Made by a program: the position numbers and the translations under genes | The notes under the pieces: model-generated | The model's database searches: none | What the model saw: the letters and a program-made list of their open reading frames with translations, nothing else | What the model was told of the DNA's origin: nothing | Shown here: in pieces, positions 39,805 through 47,545 of the stretch | Numbering within the stretch: position 1 is the first letter of the stretch | Layout of the letters: every line of letters begins with the position of its first letter | NCBI GenBank assembly: GCA_002724925.1 | Contig: PBQA01000033.1 | Span: forward strand, 1 to 64,000 | Length of the DNA: 64,000 nucleotides | Origin: Oceanospirillaceae bacterium | GTDB taxonomy: Bacteria > Pseudomonadota > Gammaproteobacteria > Pseudomonadales > Oceanobacteraceae | Reading direction: 5' to 3'

Positions 39805-40248
39805 CTACTCTTGTACAAGCAGAAAATGCGCTCGTGCGGTTGCAATGGGTTCGCCGGGATCCGTTTGCCACGCATTAATAGCAACGTTGGCTACCCGGCT
39901 TCCCTGACGCCATACCTGACAGCTGACGAAGGTATCCTGGAGTCTTCCGGCTCGAAGGTAATCAATAGAAAAGTCGATGATTTTTGGCAACGCAATACTT
40001 TCCATGGTCATCAGAAGATGCAAAGCAGCGGAAGTTTCCATACAACCTGCAATCACACCACCATGAATAGCTGGCAGTATGGGGTTACCAATATTGTCTT
40101 TATTCGCTGGCAAAATAAATGTCGGCTGCAGGTCCATCGAGTGCAGTTTTATTCCTAGCAATCCGGCATAAGGGACGGCATCGATTACAGCATCGAAATC
40201 ACCGTTGTCACGGCATTGTTGCAGAATTTTGCGCATGGCTTCTGTCAT
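39805..40248 (-). CDS. PaaI-type hotdog thioesterase
   Basis: A 147-residue hotdog-fold protein. AIHGGVIAGCMETSAALHLL is the helix of PaaI-family acyl-CoA thioesterases, and DFSIDYLRAGRLQDTFVSCQVWR is the following strand pair. The substrate is not predictable. It lies 12 bases after a second thioesterase gene on the same strand, so the two are likely cotranscribed and may form a heteromer. Confidence 0.85.
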   Translation of the reverse strand: MTEAMRKILQQCRDNGDFDAVIDAVPYAGLLGIKLHSMDLQPTFILPANKDNIGNPILPAIHGGVIAGCMETSAALHLLMTMESIALPKIIDFSIDYLRAGRLQDTFVSCQVWRQGSRVANVAINAWQTDPGEPIATARAHFLLVQE

Positions 40249-40260
40249 TGTTTTGTCCTC

Positions 40261-40698
40261 TTACTTACTACCAAGACGCAAACCAATGCGCATAAAGTTA
40301 GCGGTACATGTAGCAACAACAACGTTATCGCTTTCCTGTCGCACTTCACCTTGCGTGAATACCAGGCTGTTGGCTCGCTTAATGACTCGCGCTTCACCAA
40401 TCAGGTTCTCACCCGGCTTCGCTGCGCGATGGTAGTCCATGCGCAAATCCAGCGTTGGACAGACTTCTCCATCCTCAAAACAATTGAAGGCTGCAGTACC
40501 GCACGCGGTATCCATCAGGGTCGTCAGGCTGCCACCGGCGACGATGCCATTATCAGGGTTGCCTATAATGGCTTCACTGTATGGCAACTTGAGAATCACT
40601 TTTTCACCGTCGGCGTATTCCACCGTCATGTTGAGTAAGCGACAATGCGGCAAAACCGATACAAACCGGGTAGCTCTCTGCGTCAGTTGATCTGACAT
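40261..40698 (-). CDS. PaaI-type hotdog thioesterase
   Basis: About 145 residues. NGIVAGGSLTTLMDTACGTAAF and LDLRMDYHRAAKPGENLIGEARV are characteristic of PaaI/YdiI-like thioesterases, including the conserved Asp in the helix. AAGGAG precedes the ATG chosen; the frame extends 16 codons further upstream without a ribosome-binding site. Paralogue of the next gene downstream. Confidence 0.87.
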   Translation of the reverse strand: MSDQLTQRATRFVSVLPHCRLLNMTVEYADGEKVILKLPYSEAIIGNPDNGIVAGGSLTTLMDTACGTAAFNCFEDGEVCPTLDLRMDYHRAAKPGENLIGEARVIKRANSLVFTQGEVRQESDNVVVATCTANFMRIGLRLGSK

Positions 40699-40839
40699 AA
40701 TGAGGGGCTCCTTAAAAGCAGAATGGTTAAGGTACTTGTCACTCAATTGATGAGCAATGCTGTATCCGAGCTATTAAATTGACATATATGATCACCAAGT
40801 CTCAATCACGGTGATCTTTATAGTAAAACAGGACTCGTA

Positions 40840-41649
40840 ATGACCTCTTTCGATCACTACTATCAAGCCCTTCTCAATGGTGAGATGCCCGCTGTCGATG
40901 CCTCATGGGGCCAGGGAAAGACCACGTTTGGCGGAATGTCGGCAGCGCTGGCCCTGACAGCTCTGGAGCGCGATTACCCCCAGTCTGCGCCGCTACGGTC
41001 TCTTAGCATCCACTTCTGCGGGGCACTGACGACAGAACAACCTTACGAAATCGCCACGCGAGCCCTCAGAGCTGGTCGCTCGGTCTCACACCTGCAGGCA
41101 GAAGTCCTCCAGAACGAAGATTGCGCGACCGTGGTCAGCGCCTGCTACGGCAAAGCTCGGGAGTCTGATGTCGTTGTCGCTGCAGACAAAAGCGACCCCG
41201 GAGAGCCCGGCAGCGGCACCCGTCTCGGATACATTCAGGGTGTTACCCCCGAATTTGTTCGTCATATCGACTTCAGCTACGTCAGTGGTGGACTCCCCTT
41301 CTCGAACAGTAAAGACAATCACATCCACGGCTGGATGCGTTTCAACGACTGCAGCGGGCCCCTCACCGAAGCGCATCTGGTTGCATTGATTGATTCCTGG
41401 CCTCCAGCCACGCTACAGAAACTGAAATCGGTAGCTCCGTGTGCGAGTATCACCTGGAGTCTGGAACTTCTTGATTCACCGTCTGCAGGCGACGCCCCTC
41501 TTCAGGCGAATGACTGGCTTTACTACGAAGTAGACATTGCTGAAGCACATGGTGGCTATGCCCACACGACTGCCCGCATCTACCGTGCTGACGGCTCTCT
41601 TCTTGCGCTGTCACGCCAGCTGGTTGTGGTTTACGACAAACGCAGCTGA
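40840..41649 (+). CDS. Double-hotdog acyl-CoA thioesterase family protein
   Basis: About 269 residues with two hotdog halves (roughly 15-110 and 150-265). SWGQGKTTFGGMSAALALTALE resembles the start of the TesB-like family, and RALRAGRSVSHLQAEVLQ its second strand. WPPATLQKLKSVAPCASITWS fits the C-terminal half. It is divergent from the PaaI pair across a short intergenic region, giving three thioesterase genes at one site. Substrate unknown. Confidence 0.82.
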   Translation: MTSFDHYYQALLNGEMPAVDASWGQGKTTFGGMSAALALTALERDYPQSAPLRSLSIHFCGALTTEQPYEIATRALRAGRSVSHLQAEVLQNEDCATVVSACYGKARESDVVVAADKSDPGEPGSGTRLGYIQGVTPEFVRHIDFSYVSGGLPFSNSKDNHIHGWMRFNDCSGPLTEAHLVALIDSWPPATLQKLKSVAPCASITWSLELLDSPSAGDAPLQANDWLYYEVDIAEAHGGYAHTTARIYRADGSLLALSRQLVVVYDKRS

Positions 41650-41779
41650 TCTTTACAGAGTTCTTCCTTGCTGTAGTCAGTGAGAGCAACTATTACTTAA
41701 GGCATAAGCGATGCACTCAGTGACATCAGCAGTGTCTGCAGCTGCCTCTCACCAGACTTACAGGAAGTGAAGAACCGGA

Positions 41780-42154
41780 ATGAGCCTTAATGTACTGATT
41801 TGTGACGACTCCAGCTTTGCCCGCAAGCAGATGGCCCGAGCCCTGCCCAAAGAATGGCAGGTGGAAGTCCACTTTGCCGGCGATGGTGTTGAGGGCGTCA
41901 ATGCAATCCGGGAAGGTAAAGGCGACGTCGTATTCCTCGACCTGACCATGCCTAATATGGACGGCTACGGCGTGCTCGAAACTATTCGACGTGACGATCT
42001 CCCCGCTATGGTCATTGTTGTATCTGGTGACATCCAGCCCGATGCCCAGGACAGAGTAAAAAAGCTGGGTGCCATGGCGTTCATCAAGAAGCCGATTGAT
42101 GCCGACAAAGCACGTTCTGTGCTGACCGAATACGGCATTATGACGGGGGCCTGA
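41780..42154 (+). CDS. CheY-like single-domain response regulator
   Basis: A stand-alone receiver of 124 residues. The phosphorylation site is intact: acidic pair Asp9-Asp10, phosphoacceptor Asp54 (FLDLTMPNMDG), Ser82 and Lys104 (IKKP). No output domain, so it acts by protein contact. It is followed one base later by a CheC-like phosphatase gene, the expected dephosphorylating partner. It may receive phosphate from the hybrid kinase encoded three kilobases downstream. Confidence 0.9.
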   Translation: MSLNVLICDDSSFARKQMARALPKEWQVEVHFAGDGVEGVNAIREGKGDVVFLDLTMPNMDGYGVLETIRRDDLPAMVIVVSGDIQPDAQDRVKKLGAMAFIKKPIDADKARSVLTEYGIMTGA

Positions 42155-42155
42155 G

Positions 42156-42767
42156 ATGTCAGTAGCAGCGATTATTAATGAAGATCAGCGCGACTGTTAT
42201 CAGGAGCTTACCAACGTAGCTATGGGTCAGGCGGCAGATCGGCTGGCGCGTTTGCTGAATGCCTATGTGGTGCTCCCTATTCCCAAAATCAGCGTGATCG
42301 AGAACAGCGATCTGAATATGGCGCTTCAGGGCGCCACCAGCGACAGCAGTGTATCCGCAGTATGCCAGGGCTTTATTGGCGCGGGTATCTCTGGCGAGGC
42401 AATGTTGATGTTCAATGATGCTTCATTCGCCAGCCTCGCGTCTCTGATGAAGTACTCAGGGCCGCTGACTCAGTCTGCAGAGCTGGAACTCCTTATGGAT
42501 ACTGCGTCGGTATTGATCGGTGCTTGCATCCATGGCATCGGCGATCAGCTGGAAATTGTATTTAACCAGGGGCACCCCGTCGTGCTGGGGCAACATTGCG
42601 ATATGGCTGATTTGGTTGCATACGGCAATAACGGCTGGGACAAAGCCCTGGCGATAGAAATCCACTACACCATTGAGCATGTAAATATAGAGTGCGAGCT
42701 CCTCTTGTTGTTCACCGAGGAATCTGTGCGAGCACTGAACAAGAAGATTGACTACCTTCTTGATTAA
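42156..42767 (+). CDS. CheC/CheX-type CheY-P phosphatase-like protein
   Basis: About 203 residues. Residues 13-43 match the CheC phosphatase pattern D-x3-E-x2-N-x22-P exactly (Asp13, Glu17, Asn20, Pro43). In the second half the equivalent helix SAELELLM keeps Glu111 but has Met114 where Asn is expected, so only one active site looks competent, unlike classical CheC with two. It is coupled to the CheY-like gene before it, which would be its substrate. No other chemotaxis gene is present nearby. Confidence 0.82.
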   Translation: MSVAAIINEDQRDCYQELTNVAMGQAADRLARLLNAYVVLPIPKISVIENSDLNMALQGATSDSSVSAVCQGFIGAGISGEAMLMFNDASFASLASLMKYSGPLTQSAELELLMDTASVLIGACIHGIGDQLEIVFNQGHPVVLGQHCDMADLVAYGNNGWDKALAIEIHYTIEHVNIECELLLLFTEESVRALNKKIDYLLD

Positions 42768-42800
42768 TACCGGTATCCGACAGAGAGAGACGCTAACCAC

Positions 42801-43742
42801 ATGAGTGATAAGGGCCAGGTAGACACGATTAAAGACATTCACTGGTTGATGGATATTCTCCAGAATATCGACGTCGGCCTGGTGGTGCTTGATCGTAATT
42901 ACGAGGTTCAGCTCTGGAACGCCTTTATGGAAGGACACAGTGGTGTCAGCCCGCAACTGGCCAAAGGGAAAAACCTGTTCTCGTTGTTCCCGGATCTGGA
43001 CGAAACCTGGTTTAAACAAAAAGCAGAACCGGTATTCCAGCTCAAAACGCGGACCTTCACCATTTGGGAGCAGCGTCCTTACTTATTTCACTTCAGAAAC
43101 TCGCGCCCGATCACGGGCCGTAGCAAGTTCATGTATCAGAACACCAGTATCATCCCGCTGGAGTCGGTTACCCGACAGGCTGACCATCTGTGCGTCATTA
43201 TTTACGATGTGACAGATACTGCCGTCGGTAAAATTGATATTTCCCGTGCAAACCAGACACTCAGTGAAATTCAGGTTCGCGATACCCTCACCGGCTTAAC
43301 GAATAAATCCGCGTGGCTCAATGTTCTGGAGAACTACTACGCCAGTCAGCAGCAAGGCTGCTTGCTGTTACTCGATATGGATCACTTCCGCGACCTGAAC
43401 CATGCGCTCAGCCACCAGCAGTGTGATGAAATCCTCCGCCGGATTGGGACAGGCCTCAAAACTCTCGGAGATGAACAGCACGCAGCACGTTTTGGCGGTG
43501 AAATTTTCTCTGTCATTCTCGCCGGTAAAGGTGCCGACGAGGCGATGCAGATCGCCGAAAAACTGCGCCGCTCGGTTTTAAGTCTCGGGAAAAACTCGCA
43601 ATATACCATCAGCGCGAGTATCGGCGTAGCAGAACGTCTTGACGATACACCTAGCGCCAGCGAATGGCTGAGTAACGCGGACAAAGCGCTGTATCACGCC
43701 AAAGAAAGCGGTCGCAACCGCACATCCCTGTTTAAACGCTGA
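42801..43742 (+). CDS. PAS-GGDEF protein with degenerate active site
   Basis: A 313-residue soluble signalling protein. Residues 10-145 form a PAS-like domain (MDILQNIDVGLVVLDRNYEV) and 155-313 a GGDEF domain starting RDTLTGLTNKSAWL. The signature reads GGEIF at 232-236, so the fourth residue, normally the Glu of GG(D/E)EF, is Ile. The usual ND..GH..GD segment is NHALSHQQCDE, and no RxxD inhibitory site is seen. Diguanylate cyclase activity is therefore doubtful; a receptor or scaffold role is more likely. It follows the CheC-like gene by 33 bases, probably in the same operon. Confidence 0.85.
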   Translation: MSDKGQVDTIKDIHWLMDILQNIDVGLVVLDRNYEVQLWNAFMEGHSGVSPQLAKGKNLFSLFPDLDETWFKQKAEPVFQLKTRTFTIWEQRPYLFHFRNSRPITGRSKFMYQNTSIIPLESVTRQADHLCVIIYDVTDTAVGKIDISRANQTLSEIQVRDTLTGLTNKSAWLNVLENYYASQQQGCLLLLDMDHFRDLNHALSHQQCDEILRRIGTGLKTLGDEQHAARFGGEIFSVILAGKGADEAMQIAEKLRRSVLSLGKNSQYTISASIGVAERLDDTPSASEWLSNADKALYHAKESGRNRTSLFKR

Positions 43743-43785
43743 CCTGCTATCATAGGCCCCTGACACTTCACATCAGCTTGCTGTT

Positions 43786-44790
43786 ATGGCCTCCTTTTCA
43801 GTTCCAGCTCCGTTTATTGATGCACCTTTAAAAGGGGTTGAGCGTCATGGCTATGCCCGCGATGCAATCTTGAGAGAAGCCGGAATCGGGCCCGATTCGT
43901 TTAACAGGGATGGATCGCTTGCACCCGAGTCATACGCAAGATTGATGCTCACTATCTGGCGCCAGACTAACGATGAAGCGATGGGCCTGAACCCTGAGCC
44001 CGTTGTGTTCCGCACCTTTGCCATGATGGGGCGTTCGATTATTACCTGCGCCACGCTTGAGCATGCGATACGCAGAGCCAGTTCCTTCTACCGGCTGCAG
44101 CCTCACTCTCCCCAGATTACTATCGAGAAAGGCGAACACAGAGCCAGGCTGATTATTACCCACGAGACAGACTTCGATCCTGATCATTTTCTTAGCGAGT
44201 CTCTGCTGGTTATCTGGCACCGCTTCTGTAGCTGGCTTATAGGCCGGGGCATCCCTTTGTTAAAAGTTGAGTGCCCATACACTGCGCCACGCCATGCCGA
44301 CCTGTACGATGATCTGTTCGCAACACCGGTAAACTTCAATTGCGATAGCTTGTCTCTGACGATTCCTCTACAGGCGATTCACGCCCCGGTAGTGCAGTCA
44401 GCAACCAGCCTTGAGGAATTTCTGGGGCACTCCCCGGCTGATATTCTCGCCCGCCCGAATCCGCATGAAAGCATCAGTGCTAAAGTCCGACACCGCTTGA
44501 TGAGTATGGCCGGCAGTGACATGCCAGACCTTGCAGGCATGGCTGACGCATTATCATTGTCTGGAGCAACACTGCGACGCAGGCTCCGTCAGGAAGGCAC
44601 AACGTATCAGACCATTAAAGACAGCGTGCGGCTGATGGAGGCCAAACGCTTACTGACCGGTTCAGAGTTAAGTGTTGCGGACATCGCAGTCACGACAGGG
44701 TTCTCGGAGACCAGCGCCTTCACCCGGGCTTTCTCACGCTGGACCGGTGACTCGCCCGCTCATTTCCGGCGCAGGAACGGCAGCCGTTAA
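43786..44790 (+). CDS. AraC-family transcriptional regulator
   Basis: About 334 residues. The N-terminal half resembles the arabinose-binding-like domain common in Pseudomonas-type AraC regulators (REAGIGPDSFNRDGSLAPESYA and FRTFAMMGRSIITCATLEHA). The C-terminal pair of helix-turn-helix motifs is at about 235-330, with SLSGATLRRRLRQEGTTYQ and SVADIAVTTGFSETSAFTRA. Its target may be a neighbouring gene or a remote catabolic locus; the sequence does not say. It lies between the GGDEF gene and the hybrid kinase on the same strand. Confidence 0.9.
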   Translation: MASFSVPAPFIDAPLKGVERHGYARDAILREAGIGPDSFNRDGSLAPESYARLMLTIWRQTNDEAMGLNPEPVVFRTFAMMGRSIITCATLEHAIRRASSFYRLQPHSPQITIEKGEHRARLIITHETDFDPDHFLSESLLVIWHRFCSWLIGRGIPLLKVECPYTAPRHADLYDDLFATPVNFNCDSLSLTIPLQAIHAPVVQSATSLEEFLGHSPADILARPNPHESISAKVRHRLMSMAGSDMPDLAGMADALSLSGATLRRRLRQEGTTYQTIKDSVRLMEAKRLLTGSELSVADIAVTTGFSETSAFTRAFSRWTGDSPAHFRRRNGSR

Positions 44791-44863
44791 GGCCAAAGCA
44801 ATCAGTGACAATGACAGTACTGCAACTAAACTTTAAACTCAGAACATTTGCGAGAGACTTATC

Positions 44864-47545
44864 GTGGCGGTAAGGATACTTCTGCTTCTGCTTTTACTCC
44901 CCTCTTACGCCGCCCAGGCTCTCACGCTGACGGACGATATTGAGGGTCGCCTGCTGGGAAATTCGCTCCAGGAATGGTCTGAGTCAGAGCAAATAAACCC
45001 AGACGACATACACTCGCATGCATTGCCATGGACTCAAGTCAGGGCCATGGTCCCGAATCCCGGAGTATCAAGCCCACCTCACTGGTATCGCCTGCCAATT
45101 AATATCAATGAAATCGGAGATCGCTGGTTCGCAGATGTGGACTACCCAAGAATTGAACGTGTTGATATGAAGTTGTTCCGCGGTGATGAACTCATAGCCT
45201 CCTCAGAAGATGGCAACCCTGTTCATTCAAAAGCGACAGAAAAAGCAAAACTCTCGTTCAGTTTCGAACTACCATTTGATCAACCCGGTGACTACGTTCT
45301 TTATCTGCGCGTTGAAAACAACGTATTGCTGAACCTCCCCTTGCGCCTTTACAGAGATGCCGGGCTGCGTAGCGCACATCAGCAGAAACAACTTTATTTC
45401 GGCCTGTACTCCGGGTTTCTGTTCGCACTTCTGCTTTACAACCTGGCGGTCTACCTGGTCATACGCGAACGCTATATGCTCTTGTTCTGTGGCTTTATTT
45501 CGACCTACCTGCTGTTCTTCTGGGCCCATACCGGCTTAGGTTATCGGTACTTATGGCCGGGTTGGCCGGGGTTTGAAGAGCAGTCCAGTTTTCTGACTTC
45601 CTGCTTTGCCATGCTGTTAATCATATTATTCAGCATGAGTTTTCTGAAAGTCGCAGGGCCAAACAGGCGCGCCCTGACGCTGGTTTATAAAATCGCGGTA
45701 CTGCTCACCGGTGCTGGTGCAGTATCGGCTCTGTTCACCGATGTACACACCACCGCGCTGATTATGCGGGTTGTTACAATAATGACGCCCATATTTCTGA
45801 TCATCTCAGCGAGTCTGTCTCAGCCGCTGCTATCCGCATCACGAGCCGTGTATACCCTTGGCGTCTATGCGCTCGCTATCGCGATCGTTATACACAGTCT
45901 TGCGCGCCAGAGCGTTATTCCTACGAACGACATTATCGCTCATGCGGCGCATATTGGTGCAGTGAGCCTGATCGCTATACATAGCCTTGCCATTGTCCTG
46001 CGACTGTACGAGCAACGCCTCGAACAGATTCGAGCACGCAAAGATATTATTGCAGCACGCAAACGCTCGATTCAAAGTGAAGAGAAGTTACGCAAGTCAG
46101 AGGCATCGTTAGCGGAAAAAGATGCCGAAGCGAATGCTAAGTCTGCATTTCTGGCGATGATGAGCCACGAAATCCGGACCCCTCTCAATGGCGTGCTGGG
46201 GATGGTAGAACTGCTACAACACACCCGTCTCGACAACCAGCAAAAACGCTACATCAGTACCATCGCCAGTTCGGGCGAAAACCTTTTGTCACTTCTCAAC
46301 GATGTACTCGATCTTTCAAAAATTGAATCGGGTAAAATGATTATCGAACGGCGACAGGTTGAGCTGGCTCCTCTAATCAACGAGTGTTTGATGCTGCACA
46401 GCCAGAAAGCCCTTGATAAGCAACTGACCTTAACGGCCGATTTGGGGACACCGCTGTACACCACCATCAATACGGACGAAATGCGTCTCCGACAAGTACT
46501 GAATAACCTGATCAATAATGCTGTGAAATTTACCGAGCACGGTCAGGTTGAAGTACGGTTGGAATGGCGGGAACCTGAGCTGCAGATTCATGTTATCGAT
46601 ACTGGCATCGGCATATCAGAAGAGCAACGCAGTCGCTTATTCCATAGTTTTACCCAAGCGACGCCGAACACAAGCAAGCAATACGGTGGAACAGGCCTGG
46701 GGCTCACTATCAGCCAAAGGCTTGCGCATTTATTAGGAGGCGAGATCTCGCTCAACAGCGCTCCGGGCATGGGGTCCACCTTCACCATAAGACTGCCTGA
46801 TGTTGCACCGGGGGCCCCTCAGGCACTACCAGACTTGTCTGGGCGCACCTGTTTTATCGAGTTATCAAATCCTGTCGAACGACGCTTTGTTAAGATGATT
46901 GCAAACCGGCTTGGCCTCGAAGAGATGACGAGTCGCTTCCACACACCGCTGGACTGTATGATCGTCGATACGCTGCCAGTGGATAAAACGATTCCAGAAA
47001 ACCTGATATGTGTTGTTGACGACTACTGGCCTCGCATCGGTATTGAACGCCAGAGCGAACGTCCTCTGCGCTCTCATGTTCTGTTGCATCAGATATCAAA
47101 CCTGATACAGGTTCAAGCAGAATCCACCGATGTGACGAAGGGCTATCGCAAAGGCACAATCTGGGTCGCTGAAGACAACATCGTCAATCAAAAGGTAATT
47201 TCAGGAATGCTGCGCCACCTGAATATGGAGTGCGAGGTATTTTCAAACGGCGCTCAGATTCTCGCGGCCTATGGAAAGCGTCCGGAGCAAGTCGATCTTA
47301 TTCTGATGGATTGCGAAATGCCGGTGATGGATGGCTACGACGCCTGTCGCGAAATCCGCCGCTTACAGGACAGCGACTCAAACAGCATCACCCGCCGCAC
47401 GCCTATTATTGCTCTGACTGCCCATTTGGGCGGAGAGTTCGAACAAATGGCGCGTCACGCGGGGATGGATGACCTGGTGACGAAACCCATTCGCAAGAAC
47501 ACGCTCAGCAACCTGTTCAGCATCTGGCTGCCTGAGACGGAGTGA
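44864..47545 (+). CDS. 7TMR-DISM hybrid sensor histidine kinase
   Basis: An 893-residue membrane kinase. A signal peptide (ILLLLLLLPSYAAQA) precedes an extracellular 7TMR-DISM sensor (about 25-165) and seven helices (185-390). A coiled coil leads to the HisKA domain with His435 (MMSHEIRTPLNG) and an ATPase domain (NNLINNAVKF, DTGIGIS, GGTGLGLT). The stretch at about 660-750 looks like a receiver that lost its phosphorylation site. A complete receiver with Asp816 (LMDCEMPVMDG) and KPIRKN ends the protein. GTG start. It converges on pheA with a two-base gap. The ligand is unknown; DISM domains are often linked to carbohydrate sensing. Confidence 0.92.
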   Translation: MAVRILLLLLLLPSYAAQALTLTDDIEGRLLGNSLQEWSESEQINPDDIHSHALPWTQVRAMVPNPGVSSPPHWYRLPININEIGDRWFADVDYPRIERVDMKLFRGDELIASSEDGNPVHSKATEKAKLSFSFELPFDQPGDYVLYLRVENNVLLNLPLRLYRDAGLRSAHQQKQLYFGLYSGFLFALLLYNLAVYLVIRERYMLLFCGFISTYLLFFWAHTGLGYRYLWPGWPGFEEQSSFLTSCFAMLLIILFSMSFLKVAGPNRRALTLVYKIAVLLTGAGAVSALFTDVHTTALIMRVVTIMTPIFLIISASLSQPLLSASRAVYTLGVYALAIAIVIHSLARQSVIPTNDIIAHAAHIGAVSLIAIHSLAIVLRLYEQRLEQIRARKDIIAARKRSIQSEEKLRKSEASLAEKDAEANAKSAFLAMMSHEIRTPLNGVLGMVELLQHTRLDNQQKRYISTIASSGENLLSLLNDVLDLSKIESGKMIIERRQVELAPLINECLMLHSQKALDKQLTLTADLGTPLYTTINTDEMRLRQVLNNLINNAVKFTEHGQVEVRLEWREPELQIHVIDTGIGISEEQRSRLFHSFTQATPNTSKQYGGTGLGLTISQRLAHLLGGEISLNSAPGMGSTFTIRLPDVAPGAPQALPDLSGRTCFIELSNPVERRFVKMIANRLGLEEMTSRFHTPLDCMIVDTLPVDKTIPENLICVVDDYWPRIGIERQSERPLRSHVLLHQISNLIQVQAESTDVTKGYRKGTIWVAEDNIVNQKVISGMLRHLNMECEVFSNGAQILAAYGKRPEQVDLILMDCEMPVMDGYDACREIRRLQDSDSNSITRRTPIIALTAHLGGEFEQMARHAGMDDLVTKPIRKNTLSNLFSIWLPETE

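Follow-up and report, generated by a model that had tools for sequence, protein, structure and literature searches.

The closest described counterpart of the genes studied here is the pdcABC operon of Burkholderia thailandensis (BTH_II2363-2365; Wang et al. 2022, doi 10.1128/aem.02529-21, as presented in the review PMC9899790), in which a receiver, a phosphatase and a PAS-GGDEF protein are encoded together. In that review's account, PdcA is a cyclase, phosphorylated PdcC inhibits it by binding to the PAS domain, and PdcB is the phosphatase of PdcC. A second point of comparison is CC3396 of Caulobacter crescentus, whose degenerate GGDEF domain is described in PMC7288161 as binding GTP and activating the adjoining EAL domain.

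As in pdcABC, genes for these three kinds of protein, the phosphatase being of CheC/CheX type, stand side by side in the window (the whole 64,000-nucleotide stretch of DNA analysed here, which lies on contig C27 of a genome of 3.97 Mb). Because they match the described pdcABC, neither the arrangement nor the switch is new, a precedent missed by the preliminary description of these genes, which was made from the sequence alone. Homology with Burkholderiaceae was assessed in B. multivorans and Caballeronia, where the receiver, CheX and PAS profiles scored 161, 118 and 131 bits and 155, 150 and 131 bits respectively, in the same order and with a GGEEF motif. Unlike PdcA, a reported cyclase, and these GGEEF-bearing relatives, the window protein reads GGEIF and its I-site is gone. 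Among the papers listed by the literature searches, none dealt with an inactive or absent GGDEF domain of a PdcABC-type module, which does not prove that no such paper exists.

Organization of the locus in the window

Three plus-strand open reading frames of 124, 203 and 313 amino acids follow one another at 41780-43742 (Table 1), with gaps of 1 nt between the receiver and CheX-like genes and 33 nt between the CheX-like and PAS-GGDEF genes. Reading frames and Pfam/NCBIfam assignments agree with the three adjacent genes first proposed (receiver, CheC-like phosphatase, PAS-GGDEF protein), and for the most part that initial observation held. A scan of 41500-44900 was uninformative, with 3 promoter-like and 5 terminator-like sites versus shuffle means of 2.5 and 3.0. 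Among named genomes, the closest PAS relatives were found in metagenome-assembled genomes (MAGs) of Oleibacter marinus (97%) and Thalassolituus (91%). The reported lack of MCP genes near the module was borne out, since none of the 22 MCP-signal matches of the genome lies inside the window; none of its 15 CheW matches does either.

Table 1. Coordinates of the module features in the window.
Feature	Coordinates	Strand	Evidence
PdcC-like stand-alone receiver (CheY-like)	41780..42154	+	Pfam Response_reg 2.3e-23; D9, D10, D54, S82, K104
PdcB-like CheC/CheX-type phosphatase	42156..42767	+	NCBIfam CheC_Thtogales 6.4e-9 (below cut-off); PDB profile matches; motif
PdcA-like PAS-GGDEF protein, non-canonical GGEIF	42801..43742	+	Pfam PAS_4 7.2e-6, GGDEF 1.4e-27; AlphaFold model
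PAS domain, about residues 11-145	42831..43235	+	Alignment A1; profile match to 3mxq
GGDEF domain, residues 159-311 approximately, predicted to be catalytically inactive	43275..43733	+	Pfam, motif, ligand positions, selection tests
GGEIF signature (canonical: GGEEF), residues 232-236	43494..43508	+	Motif reading

Three acyl-CoA thioesterase (hotdog) genes, two on the minus and one on the plus strand, lie directly upstream (39808-41649); on the other side of the module come genes for an AraC-type regulator and a 7TMR-DISM hybrid histidine kinase (43786-47545). The plus-strand thioesterase was found at 19, the AraC regulator at 20 and the 7TMR hybrid kinase at 11 of the 41 loci of the bacterial family, counts that are lower bounds because the flanks were short (1.5 kb for the majority of family loci and no more than 5 kb at the others). 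Loci outside the family gave no thioesterase or AraC match and only partial kinase matches at L260 and L261, and none of the three was taken as a core part of the module. The 7TMR-DISM kinase is a possible kinase partner limited to the family.

Conservation of the module across genomes

A match covering the PAS domain was present in 40 of the 44 family genomes (none in G019, G020, G023 and G024). At all 41 family loci a CheX-like gene stands immediately upstream of the PAS gene, and at 37 it is preceded by a receiver; the four exceptions comprise two loci truncated by contig ends and two that lack an adjacent receiver. Beyond the family, matches to the PAS domain at E <= 1e-20 occurred in 115 of 293 genomes from the order and in 45 of 369 from the class, so the domain is common yet far from universal.

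The 240 scored loci comprised the 41 family loci, 67 loci of named genomes (the 80 best out of 576, minus 13 repeating family loci), 29 from the class (of 47 places), 100 from the order (of 112 places outside the family) and 3 plasmid-collection records; five pairs of rows had the same CheX and PAS sequences. One locus, L160, lies on record NZ_AP026896.1, a 4.94 Mb Aeromonas caviae replicon labelled as a plasmid and perhaps a chromosome.

A CheX-like domain was encoded immediately upstream of the PAS gene, on the same strand, at 239 of the 240 loci (L260 was the exception by score), and a receiver was adjacent or fused at 217. The linkage between CheX and PAS is tighter than the linkage to the receiver, and these figures express linkage given the PAS domain, because the loci were picked by that domain. 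When neighbours within at most 5 kb were clustered at 68 loci (the window and the 67 named records), the PAS cluster reached 68 loci, the receiver/CheX cluster 67 and the third most frequent cluster 27. By score, CheX-like and PAS genes occurred without an adjacent receiver at L048, L049, L067, L086, L091, L120, L168-L170 and L189; the further loci without one were L236-L239, L249, L255, L256 and L259.

Psyr_0886 of Pseudomonas syringae (REC and CheC), listed as a predicted partner of the BphP1 bacteriophytochrome with a probability of 0.181 (PMC5654926, table 1), is perhaps the receiver-CheX protein of Pseudomonas. The V. cholerae polar motility proteins MotV and MotW, considered as possible counterparts, turned out to be different proteins (PMC8789113); the same paper terms VC0377 a CheX family member and, where it does so, states no tie to a PdcABC-type module.

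The receiver and the CheC/CheX-like phosphatase

The receiver is intact, as first described: all five active-site residues (D9, D10, D54, S82 and K104) are in place, the phospho-acceptor D54 being encoded at 41939-41941, and they were identical in 216 of the 216 receivers examined.

The phosphatase scored below the Pfam CheX cut-off (6.2e-5, 23.4 bits vs. 27), and its NCBIfam match (Table 1) was likewise far under the cut-off of that model; in the PDB its profile matched CheC (1xkr, 1.5e-6) and a CheC/FliN fusion (4hyn, 3.9e-7). The perfect D-x3-E-x2-N-x22-P site noted earlier was found at residues 13-43 (D13, E17, N20 and P43; 42192-42284), an arrangement that arose in 79 of 100,000 shuffles of the protein. 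Among 237 CheX rows, E17 was conserved in 235 (2 gaps), N20 in 236 (1 gap) and P43 in 234, with D13 looser (D in 206, E in 23). Receiver and CheX residue counts leave out the two PAS-kinase loci (L260 and L261), the second of which encodes a CheX-like protein without ExxN, as judged by eye.

The window protein shares the ExxN site with the CheC/CheX/FliY phosphatases (1xkr, 2f9z, 4hyn and 3hm4) and, unlike them, is of a type linked to a PAS protein. A CheC fold is predicted from the model of a fused homologue, the receiver-CheX protein of Shewanella glacialipiscicola (pLDDT 80.3), which matched the Thermotoga CheC fold (Foldseek: 2f9z and 1xkr, TMt 0.72-0.75). Pfam CheX fell below its cut-off in 2 of the 4 fused homologues tested; Shewanella L068 was just above it (27.5 vs. 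27), and the search of fused homologue L118 gave no match.

CheX residues 115-118 (D115-S118 in the window, 42498-42509) stand where CheC proteins carry a second site. Position 118 was N at 114 of the 180 canonical-cyclase loci, S at 26 of the 28 non-canonical loci, and divided 14 S vs. 14 N at PAS-only loci, a pattern confounded by ancestry.

The PAS-GGDEF protein and its altered motif

The PAS domain is the best-conserved part of the third protein (mean column identity 74% in the 25-row alignment A1), and the A1 profile matched PDB chain 3mxq at 2.6e-27. The AlphaFold model of the window protein (mean pLDDT 80.7) resembled PAS-GGDEF and GGDEF structures, among them 3ign (TMt 0.86); the placement of domains was unreliable in this model and in that of the Shewanella fusion (pTM 0.53 and 0.56). 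Structure 3ign, the GGDEF domain of a Marinobacter aquaeolei protein with c-di-GMP, shares 76-84% identity with its counterparts in nine members of the module and has the canonical GGEEF, unlike the GGEIF of the window.

The GGEIF reading was confirmed at residues 232-236. The accompanying claim that the ND..GH..GD segment had been lost was too strong for the segment as a whole, which reads NHALSHQQCD and retains N200, H205 and D209, with substitutions at both glycines and at the D that follows N. Residues D194, N200, D209, E234, K301 and R305 are kept in the window and align with GTP and metal ligands of PleD (ligand roles as given in PMC7288161; the mapping onto window residues was made in this analysis). 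Judged by sequence, the ligand positions are those expected of a GTP-binding degenerate GGDEF domain of the CC3396 type; like CC3396, the window domain combines an altered motif with kept GTP-ligand positions, and unlike it, the chain has no EAL or other effector domain (Pfam) and its GTP binding is putative. The protein has neither the GG(D/E)EF of an active diguanylate cyclase nor the RxxD of an I-site c-di-GMP receptor, GDEQ standing where RxxD is expected; in the window and its nearest relatives RxxD is replaced by GDEQ, SADN, GGET, AQEN or VGLR. The fourth residue of the GGDEF motif is generally needed for catalysis. Three changes underlie the prediction that the cyclase of the window is dead: Ile in the fourth place of GGEEF, loss of the I-site and a different residue behind N200.

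Across the 208 loci with an alignable GGDEF domain, 180 domains were canonical (174 GGEEF, 2 GGDEF and 4 GGEEY) and 28 had other motifs, 26 of these in the bacterial family of the window. All 176 GGEEF/GGDEF members keep RxxD and the positions aligned to PleD D327, N335 and D344. GGEIF was found at 4 of the 41 family loci, the other relatives having GGEEF, GGEVF, GGELF, GGDMF, etc., or no GGDEF domain; its conservation with the three-gene order, as implied by the preliminary description, is thus not supported. Canonical GGEEF in the same gene context, named beforehand as an observation that would count against a non-cyclase role, is in fact the common state (174 of 208), yet the clade of the window has none.

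A clade without GGEEF and selection on its GGDEF domain

The family tree of receiver, CheX and PAS placed the window in a 27-row clade (support 100/99) with no GGEEF, and its sister group contained GGEEF in L024, L026 and L028 and one member with QHNHF. The chosen outgroup did not form a single split, because L163 and L164 grouped weakly with three GGEEF family members; the 27-row clade was unaffected, and in a larger tree its 26 distinct rows again formed one split (support 96). Motifs vary within the clade: GGEIF, GGELF, GGEVF, SGEMF, TGETF and others, scrambled motifs (L031, L033, L034, L035, L037, L038 and L039) and two PAS-only members (L040 and L041).

Pocket residues were counted in the 18 of the 27 rows that keep register, the other 9 being left out. 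D194, D209 and H205 were present in all 18 and N200 in 17. E234 was kept in 15 rows, 2 others having D; K301 was also kept in 15, the remaining 3 having R; R305 was kept in 10. At the fourth place of the motif, E never occurred and every row had V, I, L, T or M; the D after N200 was kept in none, and the K197 position had R in 16, K in 1 and E in 1.

Between the window and its closest relative (L009-L010), dN/dS was 0.026 for GGDEF, 0.013 for PAS, 0.006 for CheX and 0.011 for the receiver. The GGDEF part gave 0.047-0.054 in three GGEVF pairs and 0.10 for the farther relative L012, with synonymous sites near saturation, and the scrambled pair L031-L033 had too few changes to judge (3 nonsynonymous, 1 synonymous). 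GGDEF outpaced PAS in 13 of 13 pairs, three canonical pairs among them. A reciprocal-best comparison of the GGDEF domains of these same genomes, for which 29 out of 35 domains in one and 30 out of 36 in the other were entered, gave 28 pairs, with nonsynonymous differences from 0 to 0.221, in which the GGEIF domain was 21st from slowest (0.039), faster than 20 of the 27 other pairs, themselves putative cyclases. The GGEIF domain is constrained, somewhat less than most GGDEF domains of the genome pair. Since its rate lies within the GGDEF range of the genome and most ligand positions are kept, the altered domain is probably a selected pseudo-enzyme; the scrambled motifs and PAS-only members of the same clade fit progressive decay.

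Loci without a GGDEF domain

The GGDEF domain was absent at 29 of 239 loci, PAS-only records coming from Alteromonas, Lacimicrobium, Pseudomonas, Vibrio and Aeromonas among others, and two loci (L260 and L261) had a histidine kinase behind the PAS domain. GGDEF presence changed at least 13 times, in one direction or the other, on the gene tree. L153, initially scored as PAS-only, is truncated where the locus ends; its removal lowered PAS-only loci from 30 to 29 and presence changes from 14 to 13. A search for GGDEF remnants up to 1,500 bases downstream of the PAS-only genes at 30 loci (322 bases at L043) matched only the cut L153 (2e-8) and L144 (E 0.2). At least four genomes carry both a GGDEF-bearing and a PAS-only copy (G008: L032 and L048; G044: L167 and L262; G103: L180 and L195; G256: L191 and L232); old paralogy, and not loss, may therefore explain some of the PAS-only proteins. 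Another GGDEF domain in the genome of the window (G000:C7:45053-45538) has an in-frame TAG.

The switch residues were kept irrespective of the cyclase: receiver D9, D10, D54, S82 and K104 and CheX E17 and N20 were all conserved at the GGDEF-absent loci (27 receivers, 29 CheX) and at the non-canonical GGDEF loci (28 receivers, 28 CheX).

A cluster on p319 of Vibrio coralliilyticus encodes, in order, HDOD, receiver, CheC, PAS-kinase, EAL, HD domain and Hpt proteins. As in the window, a receiver and a CheC-annotated gene are followed by a protein with the same kind of PAS; unlike in the window, this PAS is fused to a histidine kinase. The PAS of 3mxq, which we take to be V. cholerae VC1084, is 62% identical to that of the p319 protein and 59% to that of the PAS-kinase L260. 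The p319 cluster may correspond to the VC1080-VC1087 operon of V. cholerae, for which PMC4441509 gives VC1086 (EAL), VC1087 (HD-GYP) and the response regulators VC1081 and VC1082.

Interpretation and alternatives

The reading we favour, with a probability of about 60%, is that the locus encodes a PdcABC-type phospho-switch with a c-di-GMP-independent output, in which the GGDEF domain would be a selected regulatory pseudo-enzyme that may bind GTP. A kinase would phosphorylate the PdcC-like receiver, the phosphorylated receiver would bind the PAS domain of the third protein, as the review gives for PdcABC, and the CheC/CheX-like protein would reset the switch by stripping the phosphate from the receiver. 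Both the binding of phosphorylated PdcC to PAS and the phosphatase role of PdcB are carried over by analogy from the account in PMC9899790. With its cyclase predicted to be dead, the third protein would act through PAS-mediated dimerisation or partner binding, the GGDEF domain serving as a regulatory part, perhaps reading GTP. A c-di-GMP-independent output appears most likely because the cyclase is predicted to be dead and the domain is still selected with most of its ligand positions; an output of c-di-GMP is unlikely here. The earlier suggestion that the receiver/phosphatase pair is the switch of the PAS protein is backed by the mechanism reviewed for the homologous pdcABC and by the conserved linkage and key residues. 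The proposal of a GGDEF domain turned non-cyclase was right in spirit and is partly supported for the lineage of the window, where cyclase activity was probably lost and the domain is under purifying selection; it does not extend to the whole module, in which GGEIF is not general.

Of the alternatives, decay is the most probable: the GGDEF domain may be a relic on its way out, leaving the receiver, phosphatase and PAS as the working parts. It would account for scrambled motifs and PAS-only members inside one clade, for the 29 loci without the domain and the repeated presence changes, and for a GGDEF rate above that of PAS in every pair tested and above most other GGDEF pairs. We nevertheless regard it as unlikely, because the domain has a dN/dS near 0.03 in the GGEIF lineage, a value that falls within what the remaining GGDEF domains of the genome pair show, and the ligand positions are retained while other residues go. 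The same retained counterparts of the PleD GTP and metal ligands (PMC7288161), together with selection on the domain, could also be expected if GGEIF marked a non-canonical yet active diguanylate cyclase; this is improbable given the fourth motif residue in all 18 register-keeping rows, the changed K197 and D after N200, and the missing I-site.

A role outside catalysis is known for I-site c-di-GMP receptors of the PopA/PelD/CdgG type. Such a conversion would suit the many clade members outside the subgroup of the window that have RQTD or a similar RxxD, and it is the least credible of the readings weighed here, RxxD being gone in the window and its nearest relatives. Scarcely more probable is that the operon supplies a second CheY/CheC pair to flagellar chemotaxis: the phosphatase motif and fold are of the CheC type, but the genome encodes a separate CheZ (contig C23) and a further CheX that passes the Pfam cut-off (C21), MCP and CheW matches are absent from the window, and the conserved neighbour is the PAS protein.

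A wider form of the favoured phospho-switch reading can be offered tentatively, as a possibility that we hold to be somewhat doubtful. PdcC, PdcB and PAS would form a self-contained phospho-switch whose core job is not c-di-GMP synthesis; its PAS would carry a cyclase, a histidine kinase or nothing, the switch would work without c-di-GMP in many lineages, and the dead GGDEF domain of the window clade would be a GTP-reading regulatory part.

On the phospho-switch reading, a widespread two-component switch is uncoupled from its familiar second messenger. The loci form a natural series that runs from a canonical cyclase through one altered yet under selection to PAS alone and PAS-kinase. As the first three share the same receiver chemistry, a hidden output of PAS and the fate of the pseudo-GGDEF domain can be tested in marine bacteria that pose no hazard. 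The switch may have a second output beyond c-di-GMP, since the domain that it normally controls is here without the standard catalytic motif and yet is kept by selection.
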